This document shows, piece after piece, positions 3,935 to 56,974 of a stretch of 64,000 bases of DNA; within the stretch, counting starts at the first letter, position 1, and each line of letters opens with the position of its first letter. The position numbers were made by a program, and so were the translations under genes. Origin of the DNA: Cordylochernes scorpioides (lineage: Eukaryota; Arthropoda; Arachnida; Pseudoscorpiones; Chernetidae). The notes beneath the pieces are model-generated. The model was given only the letters and a program-made list of their open reading frames with translations, searched no databases and was not told where the DNA came from. The stretch covers positions 64,852,115-64,916,114 of the forward strand of contig CP092876.1 of the NCBI GenBank assembly GCA_030710605.1, given 5' to 3'.

Positions 3935-4034
3935 NNNNNNNNNNNNNNNNNNNNNNNNNNNNNNNNNNNNNNNNNNNNNNNNNNNNNNNNNNNNNNNNNN
4001 NNNNNNNNNNNNNNNNNNNNNNNNNNNNNNNNNN
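3935..4034. other. Assembly gap of 100 N
   Basis: A run of exactly 100 N inside the satellite, a conventional gap of unknown size. The left edge is poor sequence: a run of nine or ten G and a truncated monomer precede it. True array length is therefore unknown. Confidence 0.99.
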
Positions 4035-7000: not shown

Positions 7001-7959
7001 TCCTCCCTCTCTAGCTATACCTTCTCACTAGGCAGTCTGGGCTCCACCATTGAAGAACTGAAACACCCAACACACAGCCTCCTCCCTCTCTAGCTATACC
7101 TTCTCACTCGGCAGTCTGGGCTCCACCATTGAAGAACTGAAACACCCAACACACAGCCTCCTCCCTCTCTAGCTATACCTTCTCATTCGGCAGTCTGGGC
7201 TCCACCATTGAAGAACTGAAACACCCAACACACAGCCTCCTTCCTCTCTAGCTATACCTTCTCACTCGGCAGTCTGGGCTCCACCATTGAAAAACTGAAA
7301 CACCCAACACACAGCCTCCTCCCTCTCTAGCTATACCTTCAAACTCGGTAGTCTGGGCTCCATCATTGAAGAACTGAAACACCCAACATACAGCCTCCCC
7401 CCTCTCTAGCTATACCTTCTCACTCGGTAGTCTGGGCTCCGCCATTGAAGAACTGAAACACCCAACACACAGCCCCCTCCCTCTCTAGCTATACCTTTTT
7501 ACTCGGCAGTCTGGGCTCCACCATTGAAGAACTGAAACACCCAACACACAGCCTCCTCCCTTTCTAGCTATACATTCTCACTCGGCAGTCTGGGCTCCAC
7601 CATTGAAGAACTAAAACACCCAACACACAGCCCCCTCCCTCTCTAGCTATACCTTCTTACTCGGCAGTCTAGGCTCCACCATTGAAGAACTGAAACACCC
7701 AACACACAGCCTCCTCCCTCTCTAGCTATACCTTCTCACTCGGGAGTCTGGGCTCCACCATTGAAGAACTGAAACACCCAACACACAGCCTCCTCCTTCT
7801 CTAGCTATACCTTCTTACACGGCAGTCTGGGCTCCACCATTAAAGAACTAAAACACCCAACACACAGCCTCCTCCCTCTCTAGCTATACCTTCTCACTCG
7901 GAAGTCTGGGCTCCACCATTGAAGAACTGAAACACCCAACACACAGCCTCCTCCCTCTC

Positions 7960-10900
7960 TAGCTATACCTTCTCACTAGGCAGTCTGGGCTCCACCATTG
8001 AAGAACTGAAACACCTAACACACAGCCTCCTCCCTCTCTAGCTATACCTTCTCACTCGATAATCTGGGCTCCACCATTGAAGAACTAAAACACCCAACAC
8101 ACAGCCTCCTCCCTCTCTAGCTATACTTTCTCACTCGGCAGTCTGGGCTCCACCATTGAAGAACTGAAACACCCAACACACAGCCTCCTCCCTCTCTAGC
8201 TATACCTTCTCATTCGGCAGTCTGGGCTCCACCATTGAAGAACTGAAACACCCAACACACAGCCTCCTTCCTCTCTAGCTATACCTTCTCACTCGGCAGT
8301 CTGGGCTCCACCATTGAAAAACTGAAACACCCAACACACAGCCTCCTCCCTCTCTAGCTATACCTTCAAACTCGTTAGTCTGGGCTCCACCATTGAAGAA
8401 CTGAAACACCCAACACACAGCCTACTCCCTCTCTAGCTATACCTTCTCACTCGGTAGTCTGGGCTCCACCATTGAAGAACTGAAACACCCAACACACAGC
8501 ATCCTCCCTCTCTAGCTATACCTTCTCACTCGGCAGTCTGGGCTCCACCATTGAAGAACTGAAACACCCAAAACACAGCTCCTCCCTCTCTAGCTATACC
8601 TTCTTACTCGGCAGTCTGGGCTCCACCATTGAAGAACTGAAACACCCAACACACAGCCTCCTCCCTCTCTAGCTATACCTTCTCACTCGGCAGTCTGGGC
8701 TCCACCATTGAATAACTGAAACAACAAACACACAGCCTCCTCCCTCTCTAGCTATACCTTCTCACTCGGCAATCTGGGCTCCACCATTGAAGAACTGAAA
8801 CACCCAACACACAGCCTCCTCCCTCTCTAGCTATACCTTCTCACTCGGGAGTCTGGGCTCCACCATTGAAGAACTGAAACACCCAACACACAGCCTCCTC
8901 CCTCTCTAGCTATACCTTCTTACTCGGCAGTCTGGGCTCCACCATTGAAGAACTGGAACACCCAATATACAGCCTCCTCCCTCTCTAGCTATACATACTC
9001 ACTCGGTAGTCTGGGCTCCACCATTGAAGAACTGAAACACCCAACACACAGCCTCCTCCCTCTCTAGCTATACATTCTTACACGGCAGTCTGGGCTCCAC
9101 CATTGAAGAACTGAAACACCCAACACACAGCCTCCTCCCTCTCTAGCTATACCTTCTTACGCGGCAGTCTGGGCTCCACCATTTAAGAACTGAAACACCC
9201 AACACACAGCCCCCTCCCTCTCTAGCTATACCTTTTTACTCGGCAGTCTGGGCTCCACCATTGAAGAACTGAAACACCCAACACACAGCCTCCTCCCTTT
9301 CTAGCTATACATTCTCACTCGGCAGTCTGGGCTCCACCATTGAAGAACTAAAACACCCAACACACAGCCCCCTCTCTCTCTAGCTATACCTTCTTACTCG
9401 GCAGTCTAGGCTCCACCATTGAAGAACTGAAACACCCAACACACAGCCTCCTCCCTCTCTAGCTATACCTTCTCACTCGGGAGTCTGGGCTCCACCATTG
9501 AAGAACTGAAACACCCAACACACAGCCTCCTCCCTCTCTAGCTATACCTTCTTACTCGGCAGTCTGGGCTCCACCATTGAAGAACTGAAACACCCAACAT
9601 ACAGCCTCCTCCTTCTCTAGCTATACCTTCTAACTCGGCAGTCTGGGCTCCACCATTGAAGAACTAAAACACCCAACACACAGCCTTCTCCCGTTCTAGC
9701 TATACCTTCTCACTCGAAAGTCTGGGCTCCACCATTGAAGAACTGAAACACCCAACACACAGCCTCCTCCCTCTCTAGCTATACCTTCTCACTCGGCAGT
9801 CTGGGCTCCACCATTGAATAACTGAAACACCCAACACACAGCCTCCTCCCTCTCTAGCTATACCTTCTCACTCGGCATTCTGGGCTCCACCATTGAAGAA
9901 CTGAAACACCCAACACACAGCCTCCTCCCTCTCTAGCTATACCTTCTCACTAGGCAGTCTGGGCTCCACCATTGAAGAACTGAAACACCTAACACACAGC
10001 CTCCTCCCTCTCTAGCTATACCTTCTCACTCGATAATCTGGGCTCCACCATTGAAGAACTAAAACACCCAACACACAGCCTCCTCCCTCTCTAGCTATAC
10101 TTTCTCACTCGGCAGTCTGGGCTCCACCATTGAAGAACTGAAACACCCAACACACAGCCTCCTCCCTCTCTAGCTATACCTTCTCATTCGGCAGTCTGGG
10201 CTCCACCATTGAAGAACTGAAACACCCAACACACAGCCTCCTTCCTCTCTAGCTATACCTTCTCACTCGGCAGTCTGGGCTCCACCATTGAAAAACTGAA
10301 ACGCCCAACACACAGCCTCCTCCCTCTCTAGCTATACCTTCAAACTCGTTAGTCTGGGCTCCACGATTGAAGAACTGAAACACCCAACACACAGCCTACT
10401 CCCTCTCTAGCTATACCTTCTCACTCGGTAGTCTGGGCTCCACCATTGAAGAACTGAAACACCCAACACACAGCATCCTCCCTCTCTAGCTATACCTTCT
10501 CACTCGGCAGTCTGGGCTCCACCATTGAAGAACTGAAACACCCAAAACACAGCTCCTCCCTCTCTAGCTATACCTTCTTACTCGGCAGTCTGGGCTCCAC
10601 CATTGAAGAACTGAAACACCCAACACACAGCCTCCTCCCTCTCTAGCTATACCTTCTCACTCGGCAGTCTGGGCTCCACCATTGAATAACTGAAACAACA
10701 AACACACAGCCTCCTCCCTCTCTAGCTATACCTTCTCACTCGGCAATCTGGGCTCCACCATTGAAGAACTGAAACACCCAACACACAGCCTCCTCCCTCT
10801 CTAGCTATACCTTCTCACTCGGGAGTCTGGGCTCCACCATTGAAGAACTGAAACACCCAACACACAGCCTCCTCCCTCTCTAGCTATACCTTCTTACTCG

Positions 10901-11905
10901 GCAGTCTGGGCTCCACCATTGAAGAACTGGAACACCCAATATACAGCCTCCTCCCTCTCTAGCTATACATACTCACTCGGTAGTCTGGGCTCCACCATTG
11001 AAGAACTGAAACACCCAACACACAGCCTCCTCCCTCTCTAGCTATACATTCTTACACGGCAGTCTGGGCTCCACCATTGAAGAACTGAAACACCCAACAC
11101 ACAGCCTCCTCCCTCTCTAGCTATACCTTCTTACGCGGCAGTCTGGGCTCCACCATTTAAGAACTGAAACACCCAACACACAGCCCCCTCCCTCTCTAGC
11201 TATACCTTTTTACTCGGCAGTCTGGGCTCCACCATTGAAGAACTGAAACACCCAACACACAGCCTCCTCCCTTTCTAGCTATACATTCTCACTCGGCAGT
11301 CTGGGCTCCACCATTGAAGAACTAAAACACCCAACACACAGCCCCCTCTCTCTCTAGCTATACCTTCTTACTCGGCAGTCTAGGCTCCACCATTGAAGAA
11401 CTGAAACACCCAACACACAGCCTCCTCCCTCTCTAGCTATACCTTCTCACTCGGGAGTCTGGGCTCCACCATTGAAGAACTACAACACCCAACACACAGC
11501 CTCCTCCCTCTCTAGCTATACCTTCTTACTCGGCAGTCTGGGCTCCACCATTGAAGAACTGAAACACCCAACATACAGCCTCCTCCTTCTCTAGCTATAC
11601 CTTCTAACTCGGCAGTCTGGGCTCCACCATTGAAGAACTAAAACACCCAACACACAGCCTCCTCCCTCTCTAGCTATACCTTCTCACTCGAAAGTCTGGG
11701 CTCTACCATTGAAGAACTGAAACACCCAACACACAGCCTCCTCCCTCTCTAGCTATACCTTCTCACTCGGCAGTCTGGGCTCCACCATTGAATAACTGAA
11801 ACACCCAACACACAGCCTCCTCCCTCTCTAGCTATACCTTCTCACTCGGCATTCTGGGCTCCACCATTGAAGAACTGAAACACCCAACACACAGCCTCCT
11901 CCCTC
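7960..11905. repeat. Higher-order duplication inside the satellite, two ~1,975-bp units
   Basis: Diagnostic monomer variants repeat in the same order at a displacement of about 1,974-1,976 bp, which is 25 monomers. They include tcactagg (ends 7980 and 9954), tcgataatc (8057 and 10031), caaactcgtt (about 8368 and 10342), aacaacaaacac (about 8715 and 10690) and aatatacagcc (about 8966 and 10940). Part of the same order returns once more from about 11925 to 12190. This is segmental amplification of a block, not independent drift of single monomers. Confidence 0.85.
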
Positions 11906-12933
11906 TCTAGCTATACCTTCTCACTCGGGAGTCTGGGCTCCACCATTGAAGAACTGAAACACCCAACACACAGCCTCCTCCCTCTCTAGCTATACCTTCT
12001 TACTCGGCAGTCTGGGCTCCACCATTGAAGAACTGGAACACCCAATATACAGCCTCCTCCCTCTCTAGCTATACATACTCACTCGGTAGTCTGGGCTCCA
12101 CCATTGAAGAACTGAAACACCCAACACACAGCCTCCTCCCTCTCTAGCTATACATTCTTACACGGCAGTCTGGGCTCCACCATTGAAGAACTGAAACACC
12201 CAACACACAGCCTCCTCTCTCTCTAGCTATACCTTCTTACTCGGTAGTCTGGACTCCACCATTGAAGAACTGGAACCCCCAACACATAGCCTCCTCCCTC
12301 TCTAGCTATACCTTCTTACGCGGCAGTCTGAGCTCCACCATTGAAGAACTAAAACACCCAAAGCACAGCCTCCTCCCTCTCTAGCTATACCTTCTCACTC
12401 GGCAGTCTGGGCTCCACCATTGAAGAACTGAAACACCCAACACACAGCCTCCTCCCTCTCTTACTATACCTTCTCACTCGGTAGTCTGGGCTCCACCATT
12501 GAATAACTGAAACACCCAACACACAGCCTCCACCCTCTCTAGCCATACCTTCTCACTCGGCAGTCTGGGGTCCACCATTGAAGAACTGAAACACCCAACA
12601 CACAGCCTCCTCCCTCTCTAGCTATACCTTCTCACTCGGCAGTCTGGGCTCCACCATTCAAGAACTGAAACACCCAACACACAGCCTCCTCCCTCTCTAG
12701 CTATACCTTCTCACTCGGCATTCTGGGCTCCACCATTGAAGAAATTAAACACCCAACACACAGCCTCCTCCCTCTCTAGCTATACCTTCTCACTCGGCAG
12801 TCTGGGCTTCACCATTGAATAACTGGAACACCCAACACACAGCCTCCTCCCTCTCTAGCTATACCTTCTCACTCGGCAGTCTGGGCTTCACCATTGAATA
12901 ACTGGAACACCCAACACACAGCCTCCTCCCTAA

Positions 12934-20706: not shown

Positions 20707-21530
20707 CTAGCGGATGTGTACCCGGCTTCGCCCGGGTTTTATCCGAGTGAAAGTTTGCTTAACCAATATTATTGATAATAATATTCCGTAACACCCAGAA
20801 TATTATGATAATAATGATAATAATATTCGTTACACATTATATATTTATATAATACTAGCGGACGTACCCGGCTTCGCCCGGGTTTTACCCGAGTAAAGGT
20901 TTGTCTAACGAATCTCTCGATAAAGTAGCATTTTTTCCCGGTCCCTTCAAAAATACTCGATAAGTTGAATAAAATCAATATTAATTGGTTCCCTTGGTAA
21001 TTGGAAGTTAAAGGAATAGTATCTTGCCCTGGAATTGTATCATTATTCTTGTATGGACGTACCCGGCTTCTTCCGGGTTTTACCCGAGTAAAGGTTTGTC
21101 AAACGAATCTCTCAATAAAGTGAACATTTTTTCCCGGTCCCTTGAAAAATACTCGATAAGTTGAATAAAATCAATATTAATTGGTTCCCTCGGTAATTGG
21201 AAATTAAAGGAATAGTATCTTGCCTTGGAATTGTATCATTATTCTTGTCTCAAATAAATTGCCGTGTCATCCTGAATTTTGTCTTTCCTACTTTTCTACA
21301 TTACAAAATCATCGTATCATCGTGATAATATTTAGAGCAGATTGTTGAATTATAACAGATAAATTAGAATATTTATCTTGATTATTTTAAAGCGAAAAGT
21401 TATTTCAAAAATTGTATTTGCTAGAAACCTTCCCAGTACTATACTAAATAACTTCCCAAAGTTTCATGGCGTTCCAATGAGTGGTTTGGTCAGGCATAAA
21501 GGACAGACAGACACACACACACACACACAC
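20707..21530 (+). repeat. Three heads of an RTE-like dispersed repeat, last one split by the LINE
   Basis: Heads at 20707, 20854 and 21053 share actagcgga(c/t)gtacccgg...cccgggttttaccc. The body motif ctcgataagttgaataaaat and the tail ggcgttccaatgagtggttt follow in copy 3 and also in the copy at 37135-37890. ACCCGG-loop-CCGGGT can fold as a hairpin. The tail of copy 3 runs ggcataaaggacagacagacac into (AC)n and resumes after the LINE at 26761-26806 as (CA)n, atacattcatt and tatatatagat. No reverse transcriptase is present, so these are non-autonomous or truncated copies. Confidence 0.75.
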
Positions 21531-21589
21531 TCGGGCGTGCGGCCACGCTTTCACGAGCTCCGCCGTTTTCGCCTCTGGAGTGCGTGTCG

Positions 21590-23259
21590 ATGTCGGTCAA
21601 CATGCCGAATTCGGTACCGAAAGGTAGCCCAGGCTCTGCTGAACAAGTGCCTGAAAGGACCAGCATCCTGTCTCAACCAGGCGAGGAATTATCGCCGAAA
21701 AACAACATTGAGATGAAATCTAACGAAAATTCTTCTGAATTTAAAAGAAATGCAAATTCGCCGGCAGGCGGAAGGCATGCAAATCTGGCCGCCGAGCGTG
21801 GTGACGTCACGGCGCCGAAGACTGCTGCTACGACCAGCGCAACTCCAGCCGGCCCGGCCTCGCTCAACTGGGCCGACAGCGAGATGGCGGAGGTAGACGA
21901 CAACGAGGGCTTCATCGTCGTGAAGGGCAAGAAGAGGCGCCTCGGCTCAACTTCACCTGAGCACGCTGCAAGGCAGCCCAACAAGCCTGGAAACCAGCGC
22001 AGCTCCCAGCAGCGGAAGCGGCCAACAGGGCCGAGAGCAGTGCCGCCTCAGGAGATCAAGGCGACACGCGCCAACATCGCCGACGCCAGGGCGAGGCAGG
22101 CCACCACCAACCACGAGAACTACATCTTCGTGGAGCTGTGCCCTGACATCCCGGACTACTCCTACCTCAAGGCAATTGGCATGCTGGTCGGAGGGCCAGG
22201 GAGAATAAGCCAATTTAACAGAATGAACGGCCACTACGTCGTGGGCCTCGCGAGCAAGGACCATGCGAGCCGTCTGGTGGAGGTGGGCCTTGACATCGAG
22301 GGAACCCACCTGAAGGTCTTCCCCTACCGAAAAAGGGCAGAACGCATCGTCATCGCAAATCTGCCCGGCTTCGTCGAGGACAGCGCCATCGTGGAGGGCC
22401 TGCGCAACTTCGGCACCGTGACCTCCATCGCCCCCATCATGATCAAGATGGGGGAGTATACCTTCAACGACGGCCGCCGGGAGGCGTTCATCCTGCTCCG
22501 CGAGGGTGTACGGCTGGAGTCGCTGCCCACCAGAATGACCATCAAGTCCAAAGGAGACACCCTGTCTGCCTTCCTCTCCTTTGGCATCAAGTACTCGAAA
22601 TGCGGAACACAGGGCCACCGCAGAGCCAACTGCCCAGCGCTCGCCAGGCAAGAGAACGGCAGCCCCAGGCAAACAGCGACTCCCACCGACGCAAGGCCTC
22701 CCCCCCTCCTCCTCCTCTTCCTCCTCAGCAGCCAAGGAAGCCGGCACCTGCGCCCACAACACCGGCGTCCCCTGTCCAACCGGCGAAGACAACAACCGAG
22801 GCTCCGGCGATCCCCTCGACGCCCCATCCTGCCGAACCGATGGATCTCGCCCAGCCCGCCCATGCCGCCCTCCCTGCTCCCCTGGCTGCCTCGCGGCCCC
22901 TCGAGCCTCGCATCTCTCCGCTCGACCACGAGATGTCGGTGGAGAAGCTGACCTCACCTCCCTCCACGCCTGCCCGGGGAGAATCCGCACTCAAACAGCT
23001 GCTGAAGCACATCGAGGAGACCCCCACCCTTTCCATCGACTGGGACAAGCTGCCCGGCTTTAACTGCAAGGACGCACAGCAGCTCCTCACCTCTGAAACC
23101 ACCATGAAGAGGCTAGCGCCCACGTTCACAGAGGAATAGGTCGCCACCCTCGACAAGTTGCACGAAACCTTCAAGGCCTCGTGCCCAGACTCCAACTCCA
23201 CCATCCGCAAGACCCTCCAGAAGACCAGGAAGGTCCGGCGAGATCTACAGCGCCAATGA
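21590..23259 (+). pseudogene. LINE ORF1, nucleic-acid-binding protein (decayed)
   Basis: Starts at ATG 21590; a GTG six bases upstream is in frame. A low-complexity N-terminus precedes a region like that of ZCCHC3-type/Tx1 ORF1 proteins (YIFVELCPDIPDY..., RIVIANLPGF...), an RRM-like fold by family knowledge. A single zinc knuckle at 22592-22633 reads Y-S-K-C-G-T-Q-G-H-R-R-A-N-C: the first cysteine is Tyr (TAC 22592). The reading frame then shifts by one in the C-run at about 22695-22703 and continues Pro-rich in the other frame. A TAG at 23137 interrupts a clearly coding tail (starting VATLDKLHETF) that ends at TGA 23257-23259. It overlaps the ORF2 ATG as ATGA. There are thus three lesions: lost Cys, frameshift and nonsense codon. 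Confidence 0.8.
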
Positions 23260-26200
23260 ACCACCGCGTCGCCACCATCAACGCGCGAGGGCTCGCCACT
23301 CGGGGGAGGAGCCTTGCCCTTTGTCATCTCCTCAAACAACATCACGTGGACATCGCGTTTGTCCAGGAGACAAACGCATTTCATCTGGGCAGCGGCCAAG
23401 ACCTCTGCCTCGGCTACAGCGCTGTTATATTGGCCCATCCCGTAGCCATCTCGGGATCCGGACTCGCCTGCGTCTTCGGACCAGGCGTCGCCGTGCTACG
23501 ACAGCGTATCCTGTGGCCGGGCCACATCGCCTTGGCAACAATAGATGTCCACGGCGAGGAGATGACGGCCATCGCCGTTCATCTGGCACATGAACCCCGG
23601 GAACGAAACCGGCAACTGGAGCTCCTGGCGGCGACAGCGGCACAGGAGGAGGAGGGGGCCTGCTGGATCATCGGCGATTTTAATATCAGGGATCGGGGGC
23701 CCTCATCATCATAATCGTCGGATGCCCTCGCCACTCTTCTGGACCTGGCCGCGCTGGTCGACGTGGCCACCCAGTTCGACGCCGCCCACCTGCCCCCCAG
23801 AGTCGCCATGCATGGCGACCAAGTCGAATCCAACCGCCTGGACCGGATCCTCGTCCCTGCTGGAGTCCTGGATCGCGTGTCCATCTACGCGACCAGCCAC
23901 TACCACCTCTCGGACCACCGCCTCGTGCTGCTCCAGGTGGGCCCGCCCACCACCGCCGTCTCCTCCCCCACCCAGCCTCGCTTGGCCGCGATGCTCCGCT
24001 CGGGCCTCGTTCTCGATCATCTGGCTGGCTACATCCGGGAGCTCGAGGAAGAAATGGCGCACGATGACGACAACGGGAACCTATGGGACAGGTGGACCAC
24101 CATCAAGGCGGGACTGCTGGCGGAGGCCAGATCCCAGATCGCTGCCAGCGACAGCTACATCTACAGGGCAAGGCGCTATATCGCGGCGCAGCTCGAGGCC
24201 TCTTCCATCCGGGCCGACTACCCATCGCTGCCGGACCTAGCACGCGCCATCCGCCTCCGACGCCCGGTCAGCGTCATCAGGGACGAGCAGGATAACATCA
24301 TCGAGGGCCCCGAGCTTCGGCGGAGGGCGTTCGCGACCTTCCAGCCCCGCTTCGCCCGTCCCACCAGCGATCCAGCTGCGAGAGCTGCCTTCATCGCCAG
24401 CAGCCCGCCCACCACCACCCGCGAGCTGAGTGAGGAGGACCCGCTCCACCGGCCGGACATCAGCCCCAGCGAGATCGCCAACGCCATCGAGCACCTCCCT
24501 TGCGGAAAGGCCCCCGGCTGGGACGGCTTGCCGTGCGAGCTCCTCGTCGCCTTCAGCGAGGACTTCATCGCGGAAGCTCTGGCCCGGGTGTTCGCGGCAT
24601 CACGGCTCCGCGGTGCCCTGCCTCCGTCGACGCGGCGCAGCTCCATCTGCCTCGTGCCCAAGGCCCGCGGAGGTCGCGGCCTTGATGGCTACAGGCCCGT
24701 CACGCTGCCCTCGGCCGACTACAGGGTCCTGGCCGCCATCCTTCACCGGCGCCTCAAGCCCCATCTGCGGACCCTTGTGCCGGAATGCCAGACCTACGCC
24801 GTCCCCGGGAGGTCCCCGTCATGGAACATCGCCATGGTGACGGACGCCGTCGAGGAGGCCACCGCCTTGGGCTCGCCGCTGGCTGTCATGGGCGTAGACC
24901 TGAAGTCCGCCTTCGACTCATTGGACCGCGGCTTCCTGGAGTCCCTGTTGATATCCCTCCGCCTCCCGCCGGCCTTTTTGGCATGGATCAACATCTTATA
25001 CGCCGGGGCGGACGCTACGATCCGGGCCGGAAGTTTCTATACCACCGCCTTCCCCCTCCTTAACGGCCTAAGACAGGGTTGCGCCGTGAGCGCCGCCCTC
25101 TTCAGTATCGCCACGGGGCCGCTGCTACGTCGCCTGGAGTTGACCCTCGGCGTGGGCAACGTCACCGCCTACGCCGACGACATCGTCCTCCTGTTCCATC
25201 GCGACGAGGACTTCGAGCGGGTGGCGACCGTCTTCGAAGACTATAAGCAGGCCTCCGGAGTTGGCGTGAACCTCCGGAAGAGCGCTGGCCTCTGGTGCGG
25301 CGCTTGGCGCAACCGCGGCGACTCCCCTCTCGGCGCCTCCTGGTCGACCACCTCCATCAGGGTCCTCGGGCTCGACATCGCCCCCAGGAGCACCGTCGCC
25401 CACCGGGAGCAGCATCTCCTGGCCCTCCTGGAGACTGCGTGCAGCAGATGGACGCCCTTCACCCGCGGCCTCTCCCTCGTCGGACGAGCAAGAGCGGCGA
25501 ACACGCTGGTGGGGTCCACGATTCAGCACCACCTGCATGGATACCTCCCATCACCCCCGACCATCGCCAAGCTGCAGGCCCGACTGGCGAGGTTCGTTTG
25601 GGGGCCAGACCACACGGCGTGGCTTCCCGCCAACGTCATGGCGAGGTCAGTTGCCTTCGGAGGCCTCGGCCTTCTCGACCTCGCGACCCAGCCCCAGCTC
25701 GCTAGCCTCAAGGGGGTACAGGTCGCACTCCGCGGGGGCAGAAATGCCTTCAGCTGGCTGGTCGGCGGCAACAGCGGGGAAGCCTGGATCCACCCTCCAC
25801 CGGACGGCACCCGTCTCCAGCCCCGCCGTCTCCGGCTGCTGAAGCTATGGGAGGAGGCCTCCAACATCCTGGGCCTCAACCACCGGGCGGTCCCCACGGC
25901 TCAGCTGCTGGACCTCCCTATCATCGGCGGCTGCCGGTTCCTCCGCCCTCCCGACCTCCTGGCCCCCGCCCGCTGGCGCGGAGCCCGAGTCCGGGACCTC
26001 ACCGTGGAGGACCACCTCACCGCCCGACCTACGCGCTCGGCCCTGGCTGACGCCGCGGCCCTGGGCGCCTTCTGTCGGAGGCTGACCTCCGAGAACGCCG
26101 TGGGCTTCGGGGCGGAGTCTGCACCCTCATCTAGCTCTTTAGCTGCGGCCGTGGTGCTGCGAGGTTCACCTCGAGATGGTCGCCCACCATCGGTCCACCA

Positions 26201-26423
26201 CCATCTAGGATCGACTGGGCCTAGCTGCGGCGCTGCGCCCACTCGGGCCACGAAGCTGACGGGGCCCTCAAGTTGGCCCTCCACGCCCTGCCCCATCCGG
26301 CCCATCCTGCCTCGGTCGGCCCCTCCTGTCCTGCCTGCGGGTCAATCGACCGCTCCCTCGGCCACCGTTACTGGTGCTGCCGTTCCATCAGGCCTCTCAT
26401 CAGAGAGGCCTTCAACATCATAG
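23256..26423 (+). pseudogene. LINE ORF2, endonuclease and reverse transcriptase (decayed)
   Basis: Starts at ATG 23256, overlapping the ORF1 stop. The N-terminal AP-type endonuclease shows TINARG, FVQETN, GDFNIRD, NRLDRILV and the terminal LSDHR, so the usual catalytic Asn, Glu, Asp and His positions are present. A TAA at 23712-23714 splits it in the same frame. The reverse transcriptase follows with GKAPGWDGLP, DLKSAFDSLD, LRQGCAVSAALF and YADD (25170-25181), then the Tx1/L1 thumb and a GGLGLLD segment. Near the C-terminus the frame is lost. A Cys/His motif (CPACGS...GHRYWCC, from 26327) lies in a second frame, and coding-like sequence returns to the first frame after the stop at 26421, to about 26635. 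By function it would nick target DNA and copy the element RNA; this copy cannot make an intact protein. Confidence 0.88.
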
Positions 26424-38751: not shown

Positions 38752-41700
38752 CTAACCGTATGCTGGAGGAGGAACATAGTTGAAACAGTTCTGCTCACAT
38801 TCCTGTAAAGTATTGAAGGCGTTCCTCTCCCCAACGCAGAAGTCCTTCATCTCGGTGCATTCCCAGATGTGTGCATTGAAATACCACTTCTTGGTCTTTC
38901 TGGGTCCACACCGCACGACATAGATGCTGGCGTTGATGCACGGCTTACCCTTAGGTTCTGTGCATACAACAAAAAGGACACGTATTCCACATATATACAT
39001 TAGAGAAAGTAAAATGTTTCACATGTGGTAAATTAACACTATTTACAAAGCGTTTATTCTATTAGGTACAAGGACATGTTTTATATATTCCATCAGACCG
39101 GTATTCACCATAAAGTTATTAGTTTTATTTATGGTATTAATGTGGAATCTGATAATCAAATGGTCACCATCTATTCTAGCCTGTTAAGGTTTTTTCACTA
39201 ATTATTCATCTTACTCTAGTCTAAAGTTATTCAGCACCGGGTCTTTTATGAGTAGCGAAGATAAAATTCTTCTCTTGATATTGAGAACAGAAATTTGGGT
39301 ATCACGCTGAGCTGGAAGTACGGCTACGTTCTGAACATGAGAAGTTTTTATGAACAAAAAATTACGAGGCTTGTCCATCAATGGATGAAATGTGTCTATC
39401 ATCATGGTGATTTTTCTGAAATAAATAGTACTTCCATTGCATATATGATGTAATATCAATGTTATAACATTACTGGCTCTTGTTTTTGTTTGGACAACGC
39501 GAGCTCGCGAATGTAATAATCTGTACATGTTTGCTAAATATGTTGGCCAAAATATTTTTATATGTGTATCAATATTTGTATTAGACTTCCTCATTTTCAT
39601 GATTAAATACAAATTTTAATTCTATATATACGATCCTGAAATTACTCTCAAATGAACATTCAATTCACCTACTTCTTCTAGCAGCATTAGACCGGTATGC
39701 AAAGTCGTTTGCTGGATCTTCAGCTGGTACCACTACACAAACAATGGCGTCATTAGATATAGCCAATTAAAATTTTCAAGTCTTTTTGAAGATCGTCGAA
39801 TATCTACATAATAAAAGTACTGTCCTCTGTGTACTTTGTGTTGGGGTAGAAAAGAAAATTTAACGCCAGATTCCACTTAGTATTCAGCACGACGTAATGT
39901 GGGGAACCACAGATCAAAAGATTTTAGATTCGAATCCTAACAGATATTTTGATTTTTTAAATATTTCCGGGGATATCTCTTCCCCATATGCACATCGTAG
40001 CAGAATGACATAAGGTTTTTATCTGTAAATCATTATAAAAGCATGTTGAAACATGTTGAAACAAGTGAAAAATAGAAAAAATAAATTGTGAGATTGCACA
40101 GTGATCAATGTGAATAAATTGATATATTATATCTCTTCGATAGTTTAAATTAGAGTTCCTGATTATTCATATGCCAGAATATGCCATTATATATGCCATA
40201 TCAACTAATCGTTAAATTCTCCAGAATGTTGGTAAATTACTGTACGTGTTCAGGGTAGATGAAGAAGTACGTCAAAACAAACATTCCCTCGGTTACTTAC
40301 GTGGCGATAACTGATTGCAGCTCGCGTCGCATTCTCTAAACGACGGATATGCATTGTGACCTGAGACGCACATGATGCCTTCCATCTGCTTACATCTTTC
40401 TTCGACATCATTGTAGAACCACTTGTACTTGGTTGGGGAGTATACACAGGGTCGGGAGAGTACGCCGTAGCATTCCATCCTTGTGGCTCCTATAACATAC
40501 ACTCATTTATCATATTTCGACTAAATTAAACTTTCCGAATAGAAATAGCAAAATATAACGACGATTGAGGAAGAGGAAGATTATTCGCAAGCTTTCGGAC
40601 CTATTTCTACAGACTTTTTATCATTGTAAAGCCTGTATACAATTGACAATTAAAATAATTTTATTGACATCTTGTCAATACATGCAAAATGCACAGTCTG
40701 CACTATTTAAAAAAAATATATATATGGGGATTATATACACTATGTACAATGAATATGGCGCCACTGCCAGCGCTGCAGAGTTTGGTGGAGAATCGCCCGT
40801 GGGTTTCCAGCGACACCACGCATTTCGCGATCTACGAAGAATACATAGAACGCGTAATTCGCCGCTGAGGAGATGGTGATGGCGTGGTCCTCGAGACCAA
40901 CTGGAAAGATCCAGGACTGCAGTTCCGGCGGCCGGCCGATGTGTAAAGCCTGTAGAAGGACGTCCGAAAGCTTGCGAATAAAGTTCGTATAAGACACTCC
41001 TCTTCGATCGTAGTTATGTTTTGCTATATTCATCTTTCATATATAATTTGTCCGTTAAGGTAATAACACACAATGACCTTCATTAAACATATAGTTTTAT
41101 GAAAAAATAGTACAAATGTGGTATTGTACTAGGATTAGGTACATAAATTATGAAAAAAAAGAAAGAAAAAGGGCATCTCCTTATCGTGTAACTGAAGGTT
41201 GCTGATGGCTTGCGCGAACTATCTAAATAAATATAAACTCTTCTCGTTGATTTTATTTATTCCAGAATTGGCCATATACCTATTCTTGATAAATCAAGAA
41301 TTACCAGTTTTTTTTTGTTGAGGTACAGCTTTCATCACGCTGATGAGGCCCAACAGCCCTAAAAGCGTACGTGTTTAGCTTTTCTTGATTAATTAAGAAT
41401 GGGTATTTGGCTAGTTCTGGAATAGTTGAAAATCAACTAGAATAGTTTAAATTTATTCCGATAAATGGCGCAAGCCATTAGCAACTTTCAGTTGCACGAT
41501 AAGAAGATGCCTTTTTCTTTCTTTTTTTTTTCATAATATAGCTTTATGTAATAAAAATGCATATATTGGATTAAATAAATATATTCATCTTCCAATATAT
41601 ATATTTCGTTTGGCAAAGCGCCCAACCTTTGTCAAGGTATTACATTTTGTATAAACAAAATCAGTATTACATAGTTTTATTAAATTAAAGTTGAAGTACT

Positions 41701-43907
41701 TCTGTAAAAATACAAAAAAAAACGGGGGGTATTGATACATGTTAAAAAAAAAAGGAAAAATTATTAATAAAATAAATATTTTATTTAAAACGATATTTAT
41801 TATTAAATTAAGATAAAATAACGCCAATTCTATATTTTAAAATAATTTACATTTTAAAATTATGAAAGAATTATAAAAATTATTCTAGATTATGGATTTG
41901 TCACGGAGTCTGCAAAGTAAACTATTTGAAAAATTTGAAAGATATTCACATACATTTAAATAAATAATGCAGATTATATATACAGTAGGTTATAATATGA
42001 TGCTTTAGCGCGCCATTTCTTATAACAACTTCAAAATAAGTACAGTCAATTTGACGAAGCATAAAATAAATATAAAGGATAATAACCGAATCAAAAACAT
42101 GTCTTACAGGGTTGGTTCAGCAGAGAGAGCTATAATTGATGAACAAATACAAGGCATGCTTCACGAAGGAGTAATTCGCCCATCATCAAGCAGAAGGGAA
42201 TTCCCAGTTATATTAGTTAAGAAAAAGGATGGAAGTTGGAGGTTTTGCATCGACTACAGGAAGCTCAACGATATAACTGTGAAGGACGTTTATCCGATCC
42301 CCAGAGTCGATGATGTCATGGGCACCCTTCAAGGATCGAAATACTTCTCAGCGATTGATCTCAAATCGGAGAACTGGCAAGTGGAAATTGAAGAAGAGTA
42401 CAAAAAGTCTTTGATACCATTTGATACCATCGTTATAATGTACAGGATGAAGAATAAATAGAGATTGAAATTGAAACTACTTTTATTTCATCGATCATAA
42501 TCGTTTAGGCATTTGCATCTGCCAAGAGGGCCATCTCCACGTATTCCGCTTTATACTCTTATTTAGAGGCAGCCATTTTGAACAGAGATTACGAATAGTA
42601 TTATACCCTGAAATTTACATATGGCCACTCACATCACGAACCGTAGTACAGCACATTCAGTCTGTAACGCATCATCTAGTGTCTGCGCGTACCATTCGAC
42701 GCCGTTTACATCAGATGGTCTGTCCGCAAGACGTCCATTGCTTGCTTTATCTAACCTTGACGCAGAACCACAGACGTCTCCGACACCAAAGGAGCGATGA
42801 AAGAAGTATGTGGACGGCAGAATGGAATGAAATTGTCGTTAGTGACGAGTCACGCTTCTTTCTGCAACACCACGATGGTCGGATTCGAGTCTGGAGACAC
42901 CGTGGAGAGAGGATGCTGAACAGCTGCGTTATGCACCGCCACACTGGTCCTGCACCGGGTATTATGGTATGGAGCGGTATTGGATATCACTCTCGCACTC
43001 CTCTAGTACCCATTGCCGGTACTCTGAACAGCCAAAGCTACATCTCCGAGGTGTTGGAGCCAGTTGTCCTTCTTTACATTCAGGGCTTGCCCACAGCCAT
43101 ATTTCAACAGGGTAAAGCGCGCCCACACGTGGCACGCATTGTCCAAAGGTTCTTCGTCAATCTCCAGATTGAATTGCTTCTCTGGCCTATAGAAAACATG
43201 TGGTTCATGATTTCTCAACGATCGACCCAGATTACATCCCTAGCTGCCACACCAGATCAACTTTGGCAACGTGTGAAAGATGCTTGGTCTGCTGTGCCCC
43301 AAGAACACATCCAAAGTCTCTTTGAATCAATGCCGAGGCATGTGGCAGCGGGGATCTCCAACAACGGCGGCTACTCTGGCTACTGATTCTGGCAGGAACC
43401 AAACTTCGCAGAAGACTATAAATTTTGATACTTGGTCAACATGTTATCTACAAAATAGATTTTTTTGTGATATCTCTTGTCTTTCTTGGTGTTGCAATTT
43501 GGGTGGCCAGCAGTATATATACGATCAATTAATGTAAGGTAATATAGGATCAATTAAGGGAATCAAGCTTCCAGGGATAAGTTTTTTTATTATTTTCAAA
43601 TCGAATCTCTAGCCTTTGGGCATGAAAGCCTTTTTCTACAGGAGAAACACAATAAAATATTATCATTATTATATTGTTTCTCCTTTAGAAGGGCTATCAT
43701 GCCCGGGAAGTTAGATATTTGAATTAACATTTTAAAAAAGAAATTTCACCTAGAAAGCCTGATGAATTTTACCTTTATATTGCAACAAGGGGTTATTTTA
43801 TCGAATATACGACCAATATTACATCTAAAGACTTCCATTGAGGACTTACCAGCCGATTCTAAGACCGCTAGAAGAACCAAGCAGAAAGCCTTCAAGAAGG
43901 TATCCAT
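38752..43907 (-). CDS. Secreted protein with two Kunitz domains, four exons
   Basis: Exons on the minus strand: 43907-43850 (ATG, hydrophobic signal peptide, donor GTAAGT); 40489-40301 (Kunitz 1, donor GTAAGT at 40300-40295); 39732-39673 (19-residue linker, donor GTAGGT); 38957-38752 (Kunitz 2, tail, TAG). Every border is phase 1 and the lengths sum to 513 nt, giving 170 residues. Domain 1 has cysteine spacing x7-x17-x7-x12-x3 and domain 2 has x9-x16-x6-x12-x3, with KWF/WYF and N-x-F before the last pair, as in Kunitz/BPTI domains. Neither has the usual Lys/Arg-Ala reactive site, so protease inhibition is not assured; channel-blocking or structural roles are possible. Introns are 3.36 kb (full of transposon pieces), 568 bp and 715 bp. 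Exon 1 is joined to exon 2 by strand, phase and signal-peptide logic, not by transcript evidence. The linker exon is the least certain. Confidence 0.7.
40545..41027. repeat. Foldback element in intron 1
   Basis: The left arm (atagcaaaatataacgacga through attcgcaagctttcgga) returns inverted at 40950-41027. Each arm carries ctgtagaa...gtccgaaagcttgcg (plus at 40950-40980, minus at 40585-40612), the hairpin-plus-GAAA motif seen elsewhere. The middle has no recognisable gene. Confidence 0.75.
41150..41538. repeat. Foldback element with a hammerhead-like centre
   Basis: Arms 41150-41303 and 41383-41538 are inverted copies (gaaaaagggcatctccttat on the left; gcaactttcagttgcacgat and gatgcctttttc on the right). 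The 79-bp spacer holds copy C of the hammerhead-like core. Single-arm relatives occur at 38507-38640. Confidence 0.8.
41318..41382 (+). ncRNA. Hammerhead-ribozyme-like core, copy C
   Basis: Perfect CTGATGA at 41340-41346, then ggcccaacagccc as a partly paired stem II, TAAA where GAAA is required (41360-41363), and agcgtacgtgt as stem III. The G-to-T change at the invariant GAAA should abolish cleavage. gaggtacagc upstream is shared with copy A at 15776. It lies exactly between the arms of an inverted repeat. Confidence 0.5.
41539..41660 (-). repeat. Member of the aaggcatatattgg repeat family
   Basis: cttccaatatatatatttcg and gtttggcaaagcgcccaacc with tttgtcaaggtattac recur at 63027-63100 and, partly, at 47995-48055, 57617-57700 and 58860-58925. 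On the minus strand the order is a ggttggcg hairpin followed by cgaaatat. Confidence 0.5.
42051..42461 (+). pseudogene. Ty3/Gypsy reverse transcriptase fragment
   Basis: Covers the start of the domain only: ERAIIDEQIQGML, FPVILVKKKDGSWRFCIDYR, KDVYPIPRVDD, then FSAIDLKS with the first catalytic Asp. It breaks off after KKSLIPFDT, before the YxDD motif, so about one third of the domain is present. A decayed segment of pol, sense opposite to the host gene whose intron 1 it occupies. Confidence 0.85.
42540..43514 (+). pseudogene. Tc1-type transposase, 5'-truncated and mutated
   Basis: The frame from about 42640 to 43386 contains SARTIRRRLHQ (second DNA-binding motif), VVSDESRF with the first Asp, WRHRGERM, GIMVWSGIGYHSRTPLV and IFQQGKARPHVA. 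The last normally reads FQQDNARPH, so the second Asp is Gly. About six residues are missing before PIENMW, which keeps the final Glu of DD34E. The right terminal repeat survives (ttgcaatttgggtggccagc, ending at 43514); the left end is gone. Inserted in intron 1 next to the Gypsy fragment. Confidence 0.85.
43564..43760. repeat. Foldback element beside exon 1
   Basis: ggagaaacacaat and attgtttctcc pair at the centre (43640-43682). Outer arms match through ccagggataag, aatctctagcc and gggcatgaaagcc. Both arms carry the gaaggGC-loop-GCCc hairpin in opposite orientation. Lies about 90 bp from the donor of exon 1. Confidence 0.7.
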
Positions 43908-48224: not shown

Positions 48225-51200
48225 ATAATAAATAGTTATTTAATTTTTATAGTCCAGTTTTGTATTAAGATTATCTTCACTATTATGATCATTTAAATTC
48301 AAATTATAAAATTTGTAAAATGTTATTAATTTGTAGATAGAGAGAGAAAAAAAAATCTTTTACTTCTAATACATCATCAAGTTAATTATATATTTATAAT
48401 TAATAACAATAAAAATTAACAACGTAACGTCTTTTACATCGGCTTTTACACGTCATTTAGACATACTCTAATCCTATATATAGAATAATCGAAGTGAGAA
48501 TATATATAATAGTTAGAAAAAAGAGAGAAAGAAGGAACCATGCACTTTTAATCAAACTAATAATAAGGAAAAAAAAAATTTGTAAAGAAGGTAGATAAGA
48601 TTGTTAGTATATATATATATATTTTTATAATTTTATATTTTATCCTTTTTTTTTTTTTAAGATTTTTTAAGGTTTTTTTTTTATTTTATAATATGATTAT
48701 AAATAGTTGTATTTAGTAATATATCTATAGTATGAATTAACATTTGTTATAAGTTTGGATATTATGTTTTGAAACCCTAATGGTAGACCAGACATACACA
48801 AAAAACTTTAAATTGAAATAAATTGGAAAAAGAGATCTGCTGGACCGGGGATCTTCAGATAAAAGCCCAGCGACATTTCACCCCTTCTTTATTATGTCAT
48901 AGATCTCTTTTAAACCGGATTTTATGTGTTAATATTAAGTTGTTTCAGTGAAATATTTAAATGAACATATATAACAGATACAAGTGTTAACAAATTCAAA
49001 CTGTAAACCTACCTCGACCGCGGCGTCCTCCATTGTGAATATCTATTTCTGGCTGACACATGTTGCGGGGGGGGACATTTCAAATTTAGACCATTTATTC
49101 AGAATTTTTTGAACAACAAGAAAATTAAAGAAGAAAGGAAAAATAGTTAAGGGAAGAAAGCTGAATTTCATAATCTTTACAGCTAGTTATATCAAAATAA
49201 CTGATTCAACACTTATTCATCTTTTAATATTCCTTTAAAAAGGCAAATTATAAGAGTTTAATAGAGCTATTAATTGTGCAAATTCACCTTTATTTAACTT
49301 CCATTTTCCTCCCCAGAAATTGGAGATTAAACAAAATGAACTATATACTATAACACTTTAAAAATCTTGTGAAAAAATCTTTTAATCAGTTATTTAATCA
49401 AAGTTTAATTAACTGTTAAATATTATAAATTTGTATTAGTTATTATTAAGAGAAATTATAGAAAGTTGATTTCATAAATGGATATTTCCATTTATTTTTT
49501 TTTTAATATTTTATAATTGATATACTGTTGAAATATTTTACTTGTCTGATACTAAATTTGTTTTTAATAAATTCCATGTTTAAATTTTTAACATCTTCTA
49601 TGAAATTATCTAATATATTATTTATTCTATAAAATCTTAGAAACTGACCATAATATATACCCTTACAGCAAAAACTATACTAAAACATTTTTAAATTTTA
49701 ACTATATAGAATTTAAAAATAAAATATATATTCAATCAGAAGGCGTTCCCATGGGAACTTCTTCTAGTCCTTTATTAGCCAATCTAGTGTTGTTCTGGTA
49801 CGAAAGAGAATACTTTCTACAAAATAATATTAATTGGCAAATATTCCGATATGTAGATGACATAATAATATTTAATAATCCACAGTTTAAAAAATTAATA
49901 CCTGAAATATATCCTAAATACTTGAAACTTAAGAACAATGAAAAAATTTATAGAAACAAAAAAGTTAACTTTTTAGACTTGAATATAGACCTTACAAATA
50001 GTGCTGTTAGAGTTTATAATAAAAAGAGTAATTATAATTTCAATATTATAAAATACTGTAATATGAATTCTAATATATCATTAAATTGCTGTAAGGGTAT
50101 ATATTATGGTCAGTTTCTAAGATTTTATAGAATAAATATTAGATAATTTCATAGAAGATGTTAAAAATTTAAACATGGAATTTATTAAAAACAAATTTAG
50201 TATCAGACAAGTAAAATATTTCAACAGTATATCAATTATAAAATATTAAAAAAAAAATAAATGGAAATATCCATTTATGAAATCAACTTTCTATAATTTC
50301 TCTTAATAATAACTAATACAAATTTATAATCTTTAACAGTTAATTAAACTTTGATTAAATAACTGATTAAAAGATTTTTTCACAAGATTTTTAAAGTGTT
50401 ATAGTATATAGTTCATTTTGTTTAATCTCCAATTTCTGGGGAGGAAAATGGAAGTTAAATAAAGGTGAATTTGCACAATTAATAGCTTTATTAAACTCTT
50501 ATAATTTGCCTTTTTAAAGGAATATTAAAAGATGAATAAGTGTTGAATCAGTTATTTTGATATAACTAGCTGTAAAGATTATGAAATTCAGCTTTCTTCC
50601 CTTAACTATTTTTCCTTTCTTCTTTAATTTTCTTGTTGTTCAAAAAATTCTGAATAAATGGTCTAAATTTGAAATGTCCCCCCCCCGCAACATGTGTCAG
50701 CCAGAAATAGATATTCACAATGGAGGACGCCGCGGTCGAGGTAGGTTTACAGTTTGAATTTGTTAACACTTGTATCTGTTATATATGTTCATTTAAATAT
50801 TTCACTGAAACAACTTAATATTAACACATAAAATCCGGTTTAAAAGAGATCTATGACATAATAAAGAAGGGGTGAAATGTCGCTGGGCTTTTATCTGAAG
50901 ATCCCCGGTCCAGCAGATCTCTTTTTCCAATTTATTTCAATTTAAAGTTTTTTGTGTATGTCTGGTCTACCATTAGGGTTTCAAAACATAATATCCAAAC
51001 TTATAACAAATGTTAATTCATACTATAGATATATTACTAAATACAACTATTTATAATCATATTATAAAATAAAAAAAACCTTAAAAAATCTTAAAAAAAA
51101 AAAAAAAGGATAAAATATAAAATTATAAAAATATATATATATATACTAACAATCATATCTACCTTCTTTACAAAATTTTTTTTTCCTTATTATTAGTTTG

Positions 51201-52309: not shown

Positions 52310-53698
52310 TGATAGATTAAGCAATAAAGTCAACTATCACTGCTTTGAATACTATAATCGATGTATTAATTGAGCATAAGCAAAAATAACTGTCTGCACT
52401 AGTTACAATAGATATCTCGGGGGCTTTTGATAATGCCTGGTGGCCAGCGATCATAAAAAGAATAGACTCAGATAATTTACCGGGAAAACTGATCAAAATT
52501 CTACAATCATATTTAAATTCCAGGATCATTTCTTTCAGTTAAGACAATTTAACAACTTCAAAGCCAATTACTAAGGGGTGTCCTCAGGGTGATCCGCTTT
52601 CTCCACTTCTATGGACAATTTTGTTGAATGATTTGCTGATGAATTTTCGGGTGCCCAATTGTGAGTTGATTTGTTATGCGGATGATATTTCGATCATATG
52701 CTGGAATAAAGATCTAGCATCACTAAAAATAGTTATAGAGGAAGCATTAAATACTATCGAATTGTGGTGTATTAAGAACAAGTTAGAAATCAGTTCCGTA
52801 AAAACAAACATTTTATATTTGCATAATAAAGAGAAGATCCCAGTTAAATTTAAGAGTGGATTAATTTCACCAGTACAAAAATAAAAATTTTAGGAATAAC
52901 AATTGCAAATCATAGAAGAAAAAACAAATTGAATTTTGCTTTTCATATAGAGGAAATAGTGAGCAGAACTCTAAGAATAAAAATTTTTCTATTCTCTCTG
53001 TGCAGCAAATCATGGGGTTTGAGCTCCCATAAAATAATTACATTGTATAAATCTTTATTCAGATCAACTTTGACATATGGATCAGAAATATGGTTCAAAT
53101 TTTTTAAATAAAAAATCGATACAAAAATTAAACTCAATGCAATATCAGATATTAATATGGAGCATTCAAGCTTACAAGACAACTTCGTACAACTGTGTTC
53201 ACAGTTTGGCTAAAACTCCATTGATTGCAGATTACATTGAAGCAAAAAATATGAAATATGACTTAAATAACTTATCGTTTGAGGACAAGCAAAAATACAA
53301 CATCGATATTCCCTTTATAATTAAATCCTATATAGACGAAAGAATGTTGCTCTTACTGAATAATACAAACGAGACATTTACAAGTTTTTTCAACCGGGGT
53401 ATTCCAAATTATTTTCGCCCTAATTTCCACAACACACAATTTGTAACCAACCATGGTAATTTCGGGAGTTTTCTGGAAAGAATCCGCGCATCGGAGGATC
53501 CGGGCTGTTTTTGTGGATGCCGCATTCAAGATTCTACTCACCTTTTACTTAAGTGCCCAGCATTTCAAGACTACAGACTCAATAACGGTATTCTCTGTAC
53601 CGATCCAAGAGAACTGATATCCAGCAGGGATTCATACATTGTATTCAATATATTTTGTAAATTTATATCAAAGTTTTTAAATAATCTCAAGTGTTAGG
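52310..53698 (+). pseudogene. R1-type LINE reverse transcriptase and C-terminus
   Basis: Pieces in order: VTIDISGAFDNAWWPAII (the R1-clade AFDNxWWP motif, about 52420), KGCPQGDPLSPLLWTILLND (about 52572), CYADDISII with YADD (about 52676), then the thumb in a second frame (52886-53110), then the first frame again from 53077 to the stop at 53697. The end has HLLLKCPAF after CFCGCRIQDSTH, the Cys/His motif usual near the C-terminus. Two frameshifts and two early stops disable it, and the endonuclease and ORF1 are absent. A 5'-truncated dead copy. Confidence 0.85.
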
Positions 53699-55488: not shown

Positions 55489-56974
55489 CTACTGACCGTT
55501 GCAGGTCGACGAGCAATCTTCCATGGAGTCGAAGGAGTTCATTCCACGGTAGCAGAGCTGGACTTCCTTTACGTGTCTGCATCGGCGGACTTCACGGTCG
55601 TAGCAATACTGGTGGCTGCCCACAAGACCTCCGCCATCAATCATTTCGCCGCCGATTATTCCGCCACCTCCGATGATACCACCACCGCCGATTATTCCGC
55701 CACCTCCGATGATACCACCGCCGAGGCTGCCACCGCTGATGCTGCCGCCGCCGAGGCTGCCTCCGGTGATGATACCCCCACTGCCGAGGCTGCCTCCGGT
55801 GATGATACCCCCACTGCCGAGGCTGCCTCCGGTGATGATACCGCCACTGCCGAGGCTGCCTCCGGTGAGAATACCGCCGCTATGACCATCGCTGATGATA
55901 CCACCGCTATGACCACCGCTGATGACACCACCGGTGTGTTCGCCAGTCAGAATGCCTCCGGTATGTCCTCCGGTCAGGATGCCTCCACTGTGACCTCCGG
56001 TCAGGACGCCTCCAGTGTGACCTCCAGTCAAGATGCCTCCGGTGTGACCTCCAGTCAAGATGCCTCCGGTGTGACCTCCAGTCAAGATGCCTCCGGTGTG
56101 ACCTCCAGTCAAGATGCCTCCGGTGTGACCTCCAGTCAGGACACCTCCACTGTGGCCTCCGGTCAGAACGCCTCCAGTGTGACCTCCAGTGAGAATGCCT
56201 CCACTGTGACCTCCAGTGAGGATGTTTCCACTGTGGCCTCCAGACAGAACGCCTCCACTGTGGCCTCCAGACAAAATGCTTCCACTGTGACCTCCAGTAA
56301 GAATGCCTCCAGTGTGTCCTCCAGTGAGGATGTTTCCACTGTGGCCCCCAGAGATGATGCTACCACCATCGGTCAATATACCGCCACGGTGGTCTCCAGT
56401 GATGATGGTACCGCCGAGATCGCTACCACCAGAGATCAAGCCTCCTTCAATGCTATTGCTGCCTCCGACTTCTCTGACGATACCCCCGCCGATGATGTGG
56501 CCACCGGAGAGAATGCCGCCCAGTCCTCCGAGTTGACCTCCGCCGACCGACAGACCTCCGCCTATGCCGCCGCCAATGCCGCCGCCCAGGCCGTTGCCGG
56601 TGATGATGACAGTGCCGTGATCATCCACCAGGCCACCACCGAGGATGACACCATCCGAACAGGACACGAATTCTGGTTCTTCCCAGCAGCGGTCGTCCGT
56701 CTCTGGAAATCAACCGTTGAACAATCCCAGTCGAGAAGATAGCAGACCTTTTACCTACCGTCAAGACAGAAGTTGTTGCATTCGTCCAGAGATTTGAAAG
56801 AGTTGAGACCGCGGAAGCAGACTGCTCCAACGTCCACTTTCTGGCAGGACTTAGAACCTTGGTCGTAACAAACTCGGCGGCGCAGCGCGGCGGACAATCC
56901 TCCTGGAATGATGCCTCCATGGCTGTCGGCACAGAAGCCGATGTTGGGCTTGGAGGAACATCTCTTGTGGAGCA
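55489..56974 (-). CDS. Kunitz protein with a glycine-rich repeat inside its last domain (last two exons)
   Basis: Exons 56974-56759 and 56702-55489, minus strand, both entered in phase 1 and joined across a 56-bp GT-AG intron. Exon a codes one Kunitz domain: C-x8-C, a 28-residue stretch with an extra Cys, C-x8-C-x12-C-x3-C. Exon b starts a second domain with C-x8-C (WEEPEFVS between). It then carries 359 residues before the third canonical Cys, where the family has about 15, and closes with x8-x12-x3. The insert is about 18 copies of a 9-residue unit of GGHTGGILT type, then GGSLGSGGIIT and GGGGII units, with no stop. It begins right after the second Cys, at the reactive-site position. In exon a the same place has a small HGGIIPGGL insert. 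Both domains share the extra Cys before YD. The upstream exons, including a signal peptide, were not found. A secreted structural or adhesive role is conceivable; function is unknown. Confidence 0.8.

Follow-up and report, generated by a model that had tools for sequence, protein, structure and literature searches.

The classical Kunitz frame reads C-x8-C-x15-C-x7-C-x12-C-x3-C, and canonical Kunitz inhibitors carry Gly36-Gly37 before Cys 38 together with an intact binding loop (BPTI numbering). BPTI has seven residues between C14 and position 22, and small disulphide-rich domains usually accept short loop changes only. In the folded Kunitz core, the Cys at the start of the reactive-site loop forms its disulphide with the fourth classical Cys, at the turn following the sheet, and savignygrin, a soft-tick Kunitz protein, carries an RGD motif in that loop (PMC9779611). 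Barnacle adhesive is also reported to contain Kunitz proteins, with no fused form met (PMC8371367). Laccase together with NADA or NBAD has been used to cross-link a His-rich protein of silkmoth wing scales in vitro, His being given as a candidate site (PMC8062583). Here, we describe a gene on the minus strand of a 64,000-nucleotide stretch of the pseudoscorpion Cordylochernes scorpioides (assembly GCA_030710605.1, contig CP092876.1, positions 64,852,115 to 64,916,114), in which the loop after the second Cys of a Kunitz-like domain holds 351 residues. The whole stretch is called the window, and coordinates refer to it unless another locus is named. In our searches of open-licence papers we met no described case of a Kunitz domain with such an insert, in agreement with an initial annotation of the locus that had called the form unfamiliar for the family.

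Judged by its sequence, the locus most likely represents a genuine gene of three exons, whose product would be a secreted Kunitz-like protein with two domains. The product of the spliced model has 496 amino acids and 14 Cys, and the two introns are approximately 5 kb and 56 bp long. Exon 1 (62074-62014) encodes the signal peptide MVTSPAFLLFLAVVPSAVFS and the first base of the next codon, and ends at the donor GCT/GTAAGT. It was the first of eight candidates listed when the end of the window and the next 30 kb were scanned for hydrophobic frames that begin with ATG and run up to a phase-1 GT. Its signal peptide is similar to the LLLLAVVPS of a paralogue on C4 (described below), and the phase-1 junction between exon 1 and exon a yields LLHKRC, as compared with LLHKKRC in the paralogue. 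Approximately 55 bp upstream of the ATG lies a TATA-box-like TATATA (62134-62129). The sequence GGTATATAG is present upstream of the paralogue too, but the likeness is weak (local alignment score 36 over 200 bp, reached by 6 of 300 shuffles). Exon a (56974-56759, phase 1 at both ends) encodes domain 1 with the frame C-x8-C-x20-C-x7-C-x8-C-x12-C-x3-C, and is followed by the 56-bp intron (56703..56758, GTAGGT...TTTCCAG, donor score 3.83), which is missing from the paralogue. Exon b (56702-55489) opens with two bases that complete the split codon, encodes domain 2 and ends in CNGQ-stop; it is open for 406 codons from stop to stop and contributes 403 codons plus the stop as spliced, which bears out the single open coding exon at 55489-56702 proposed in the initial annotation. 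An AATAAA polyadenylation signal is found about 110 bp past the stop (55378-55373).

In the 496-residue product, domain 2 has the frame C98-x8-C107-x351-C459-x7-C467-x8-C476-x12-C489-x3-C493. The original count of 359 residues between the second Cys and the Cys ahead of the C-x8-C is correct, but the six-Cys frame built on that count overlooked a seventh Cys inside the stretch, and the insert proper is thus 351 residues long. The same extra Cys is present in domain 1 and in both domains of the paralogue. Read from the sequence, the N-terminal piece of domain 2 (C-x8-C, CWEEPEFVSC) occupies 56659..56688, the insert between Cys 2 and Cys 3 spans 55606..56658, and the C-terminal piece (C-x7-C-x8-C-x12-C-x3-C) lies at 55501..55605. 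Both Cys and Pro9 of the N-terminal piece are retained in the paralogue (CHLDPDFIHC). As first described, the insert starts directly after the second Cys and its repeat is in frame: all 254 of the 254 repeated 12-mers are in phase, being spaced by multiples of 3 bp at several different periods. The first 344 insert residues include 150 Gly (44%), 47 Ile, 33 Ser, 31 Leu, 31 Thr and 21 His, and no RGD was found in the insert as read. Eighteen in-register 9-codon units with the consensus GGH[TS]GG[IV]LT are located at 55864..56349, and TRF reports a 27-bp period with 15.1 copies at 55943-56351. Four identical 27-bp units stand in succession, which points to recent repeat growth, yet 15 of the 18 units are distinct at the DNA level. 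These units comprise 162 (18 x 9) of the 351 residues, so calling the insert mainly a 27-bp repeat was too strong; the remainder consists of 33-, 36/18-, 15- and 12-bp units and irregular Gly-rich sequence.

On this evidence the two domains are best called Kunitz-like by descent, and we do not class them among the canonical Kunitz inhibitors. In phmmer searches of the PDB, domain 1 matched TFPI (35uh_C, E 2.3e-4; 1tfx_C, TFPI domain 2, E 2.6e-4), the C-terminal piece of domain 2 matched TFPI 35uh_C (E 0.0035) and the C4 paralogue matched TFPI 7v1n_K (E 6.4e-6), all of these matches spanning the part after the loop. Compared with canonical Kunitz/BPTI domains (TFPI domain 2; PF00014), the shared features are the predicted C-terminal hairpin and helix region, the C-x12-C-x3-C tail, the Asn/Phe core and the N-terminal C-x8-C with Pro9. 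The six classical Cys positions are present with the x8, x12 and x3 spacings, in a total of seven Cys, and the distance from Cys 2 to the classical Cys 3 is 28 residues in domain 1 and 359 in domain 2. The extra Cys aligns to the Phe of Arg-Tyr-Phe-Tyr in TFPI, a position that we take to be F22 of BPTI, so that in domain 2 the 351 residues lie between C14 and a Cys at position 22. Eight residues, instead of seven, precede Cys 38 (the Cys before the x12), and the Gly-Gly pair before it is lost, GAVC and VQLC being found instead; the residue immediately ahead of this Cys is Val or Leu, and Ile or Val in the paralogue, with Gly not kept. Directly after Cys 2, the window gene has Ala or Ser, and the paralogue Ser or Thr. 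The loss of Gly-Gly, the x8 spacing and the altered residue after Cys 2 are what set these domains apart from canonical inhibitors, and the binding loop of domain 2 is in addition interrupted by the insert; the protein most likely does not act as a canonical inhibitor of proteases. AlphaFold2 (AF2) drew a hairpin and a C-terminal helix at low confidence, and the first five Foldseek matches to the domain 1 model were Kunitz-type chains (E 1.2 to 3.2). The Kunitz label of the initial annotation needs qualification, given scores below the Pfam cut-off, the lost Gly-Gly before Cys 38 and the extra Cys.

The sole paralogue found in the 2.6-Gb genome lies at C4:5842766-5843266 on the minus strand (L010, 1297-1842). 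It is intronless and has a signal peptide and two domains with x8/x7/x8/x12/x3 spacing, no minisatellite, an eighth Cys in domain 2, and a terminus (CSG-stop) at the position equivalent to the end of exon b. Of 159 aligned residues 76 are identical to the window protein, 36 of the 76 through a different codon. Its loops comprise 26 Gly-rich residues in domain 1 and 15 Ser/Arg-rich residues in domain 2. A long, Gly-bearing domain 1 loop is thus common to both genes, while the giant arm in domain 2 belongs to the window gene only. Because the paralogue's loops are this short, either the arm arose once the two genes had separated, or the C4 copy has lost it. The exon-a loop had been reported to contain Gly at the same place, as is indeed the case (20 residues from Cys 2 to Cys 3), and the suggestion that the repeat expanded from an existing short loop fits the Gly-rich domain 1 loop of the paralogue. 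In summary, the observation made in the initial annotation is confirmed with the above corrections, the TFPI matches and the in-phase 12-mers being more than chance would give, and the interpretation offered there is partly supported. Separately, the intronless state of the paralogue and its upstream likeness to the window gene could be explained by intron loss or by a retrocopy that captured a promoter.

A genome search with domain 1 at E 0.001 returned only itself and the C4 gene, and the C4 protein found itself, the two domain exons of the window gene and two Kunitz frames on C11 (E 0.115 and 0.172); the genome has at least 131 PF00014 matches at E 0.001. Searching with exon b gave 122 matches including its own locus, with 102 of 2117 candidates scored. 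Among these possible copies of the insert, 11 loci were read by eye (six of them slices of two arrays), and none was Kunitz-like; they were unrelated 27-bp minisatellites or low-complexity frames. To see whether further Kunitz genes have an intron in this loop, we read two partial Pfam matches, one papilin-like and the other partly masked. The papilin-like locus (L059, C11:41137700-41138600; thrombospondin type 1 and Kunitz by eye) has its Kunitz halves in different frames, which may reflect an intron, a frame error or a pseudogene.

An open exon b is in itself weak evidence for translation, because the plus strand also has an open frame, of 438 codons, across the same DNA. We compared the repeat units in all six frames: over 17 of the 18 units, pairwise dN/dS was 0.25 for the Kunitz frame, as compared with 1.15, 2.8, 1.6, 0.51 and 3.2 for the other five. 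Among 81 minor states in the 18 units, 49 fall at third codon positions, an excess met by a fraction of 0.00135 of 100,000 column permutations with the 18 units and 0.00013 with the 15 distinct units. This codon-phase test supports translation without proving it.

Taken together, the data are in our view best explained by a non-inhibitory Kunitz scaffold that would clamp a Gly/His arm in a structural or matrix protein, a reading in which we place moderate confidence. An in-frame minisatellite expansion would have enlarged the loop after the second Cys into a 351-residue Gly/His/Ile/Thr arm, while the Kunitz core, if expressed and folded across the insert, would serve as a disulphide clamp with the pairs C5-C55, C30-C51 and C14-C38 expected by homology. 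Because the Cys before the insert pairs with the fourth classical Cys in a folded core, the two ends of the insert would be held close; the clamp would fix them at one point, and the arm would project as a closed loop. Domain 2 is probably now an anchor for the arm and not an inhibitor, since the arm occupies the loop that would touch a protease. An altered use of this loop has precedent on a far smaller scale, as savignygrins and other RGD Kunitz proteins likewise reuse it for something besides the P1 residue; there the addition is a short RGD motif, whereas the arm described here is about six times the size of its domain. In the proposed protein the arm would make the material contacts, its Gly/Ile/Thr stretches serving assembly and its evenly spaced His residues forming cross-links through metal or quinones; the extra Cys may link the two domains or two molecules. 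We infer the structural role from the cross-linking in vitro of the His-rich moth wing-scale protein. Silkmoth His-rich cuticular proteins are, like the predicted product, secreted arthropod proteins with His-rich repeats, but they belong mostly to the RR-2 cuticle group, whereas the window gene has a Kunitz scaffold. Chitin_bind_4 (PF00379) was absent among the Pfam matches to exon a and exon b, although the genome has at least 150 matches to it, a number that suggests an arthropod; Spidroin_N had no match in the genome, a result that is no proof of its absence. More tentatively, minisatellite growth, with selection acting on the protein, may have turned a protease-facing loop into the functional element of a matrix protein that cross-links or assembles, the core surviving only as the clamp. 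If true, the gene would show how far the Kunitz fold tolerates change, up to a 351-residue loop, and would offer a route from inhibitor to structural protein as well as a natural model for long repetitive arms clamped at both ends, with the short-loop paralogue as a comparison for testing.

Several points weigh against this interpretation. Both domains score below the PF00014 cut-off of 21 bits (exon a 15.8 bits, exon b 14.8 bits), and mean AF2 confidence is low (47.5 and 53.0), with no packing of the two halves of domain 2 seen. A donor-like ACG/GTCAGT at 55496 (score 1.6, phase 1) lies shortly before the stop of exon b, so that exon b may not be the last exon, or some transcripts may be spliced onward. 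A set of 5.8 billion proteins, which may hold few animals, yielded no homologue (25 candidates with none at E 0.01, and 271 candidates with none at E 1). The low codon-phase ratio is moreover not unique. Our control consisted of 29 slices of other 27-bp arrays in the same genome, and is a poor one because many slices overlap and most are near-uniform. Six had a ratio of 0; all came from one near-uniform C15 array, and each contained two or three distinct units. The lowest of the remainder were one slice at 0.28 and the next at 0.40. Of the three control slices with at least 10 distinct units, two gave 3.57 and 0.48, both with stops inside the part that matched, and the third, which is open and may itself be a coding array, gave 0.28. 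Lastly, the function is proposed from composition, and the interpretation as a whole from the sequence of one genome.

Some of these points also bear on other explanations of the locus. Splicing could remove the repeat as an intron and leave an ordinary short Kunitz-like domain 2, as would suit the 15-residue loop in the paralogue's domain 2 and an exon b rich in GT (80) and AG (81) dinucleotides. However, under consensus weights no GT in the insert exceeds a donor-like score of 0.17, whereas the two modelled donors reach 2.26 and 3.83, which makes such splicing unlikely; since G+C is 61% in the 344 insert codons as compared with 29% in intron 1 and 55% in exon a, and since the repeat has an in-frame signature, we consider this account of the locus very improbable. 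To a pseudogene, or an open frame that was never used in a minisatellite-rich genome, we would give hardly any weight. Other 27-bp arrays with open frames were indeed seen in the 11 loci viewed, the 438-codon plus-strand frame covers the same DNA, and some control arrays have an equally low codon-phase ratio, but the signal peptide is intact, the splice sites are plausible, the product has 14 cysteines, and the identity to the paralogue is maintained in part through different codons.

Two further alternatives accept translation and differ as to folding. The pieces of domain 2 might be separate remnants on a Gly-rich spacer, with only domain 1 folded, and an insert of 351 residues in a module of about 60 is certainly extreme; AF2 pLDDT is 30-34 over the first 20 residues of exon b, and the Pfam alignment of domain 2 covers its C-terminal part only. 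The N-terminal Cys pair with its exact x8 and Pro9 is nevertheless retained in both genes, and the loop from Cys 2 to Cys 3 is also variable in length in domain 1 and in the paralogue, so we regard separate remnants as unlikely. Alternatively, the Kunitz domain could enclose an arm that folds as a beta-solenoid resembling an RTX roll or an antifreeze protein. AF2 did draw it as a beta-solenoid with a nine-residue period, and VIA-align set this model beside beta-helices. RTX repeats have the nonapeptide GGxGxDxLx (PF00353), which includes Asp, whereas the unit GGHTGGILT has none, and Pfam gave no RTX family for exon b up to E 1. AF2 has been reported to produce beta-solenoids when given perfectly repeated random sequences (PMC11795689), and for this reason we give the model little weight and consider its solenoid a probable artefact. 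In addition, Foldseek gave no match to the exon-b model at E 0.001 or below, the best being a synthetic solenoid at 0.0012, and no Kunitz chain occurred among the 50 matches listed for this model by Foldseek or VIA-align, the matches lying on the repeat. A nested solenoid is, in our estimate, distinctly improbable.

The gene on C14 is surrounded by a loose cluster of further Kunitz-type exons, with loops of ordinary length by eye. Two are in the window on the minus strand, at 38785-38964 (26.9 bits, above the Pfam cut-off) and 40317-40481 (20.7 bits, slightly below it); others in the C14 cluster are at L041:8725-8802, L043:4464-4541, L047:4667-4744, L048:4861-4938, L050:4024-4101, L052:9323-9400 and L054-L058. 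Elsewhere on C14 (L040 1468-2463, C14:89624727 region), a 332-codon open frame with nine-residue repeats of the type GGSWTQGQS and a low non-synonymous ratio of 0.28 may encode a true repeat protein; close to it is a frame of 908 codons that gave a similar match. The start of the window (1-12931) is taken up by a long satellite array with a unit of 79 bp, for which periods of 158 and 237 bp were reported as well; a 100-base N gap interrupts it at about 3935-4034. Reverse-transcriptase frames (RVT_1 by Pfam, 32 to 100 bits) are found on the plus strand at 23715-26420, 42009-42458, 49604-50143 and 52543-52881, with a further long open frame at 21500-22948 upstream of the first. Finally, a 303-codon plus-strand frame at 42475-43383 had no Pfam match at E 0.01, and by eye resembles a Tc1/mariner transposase.
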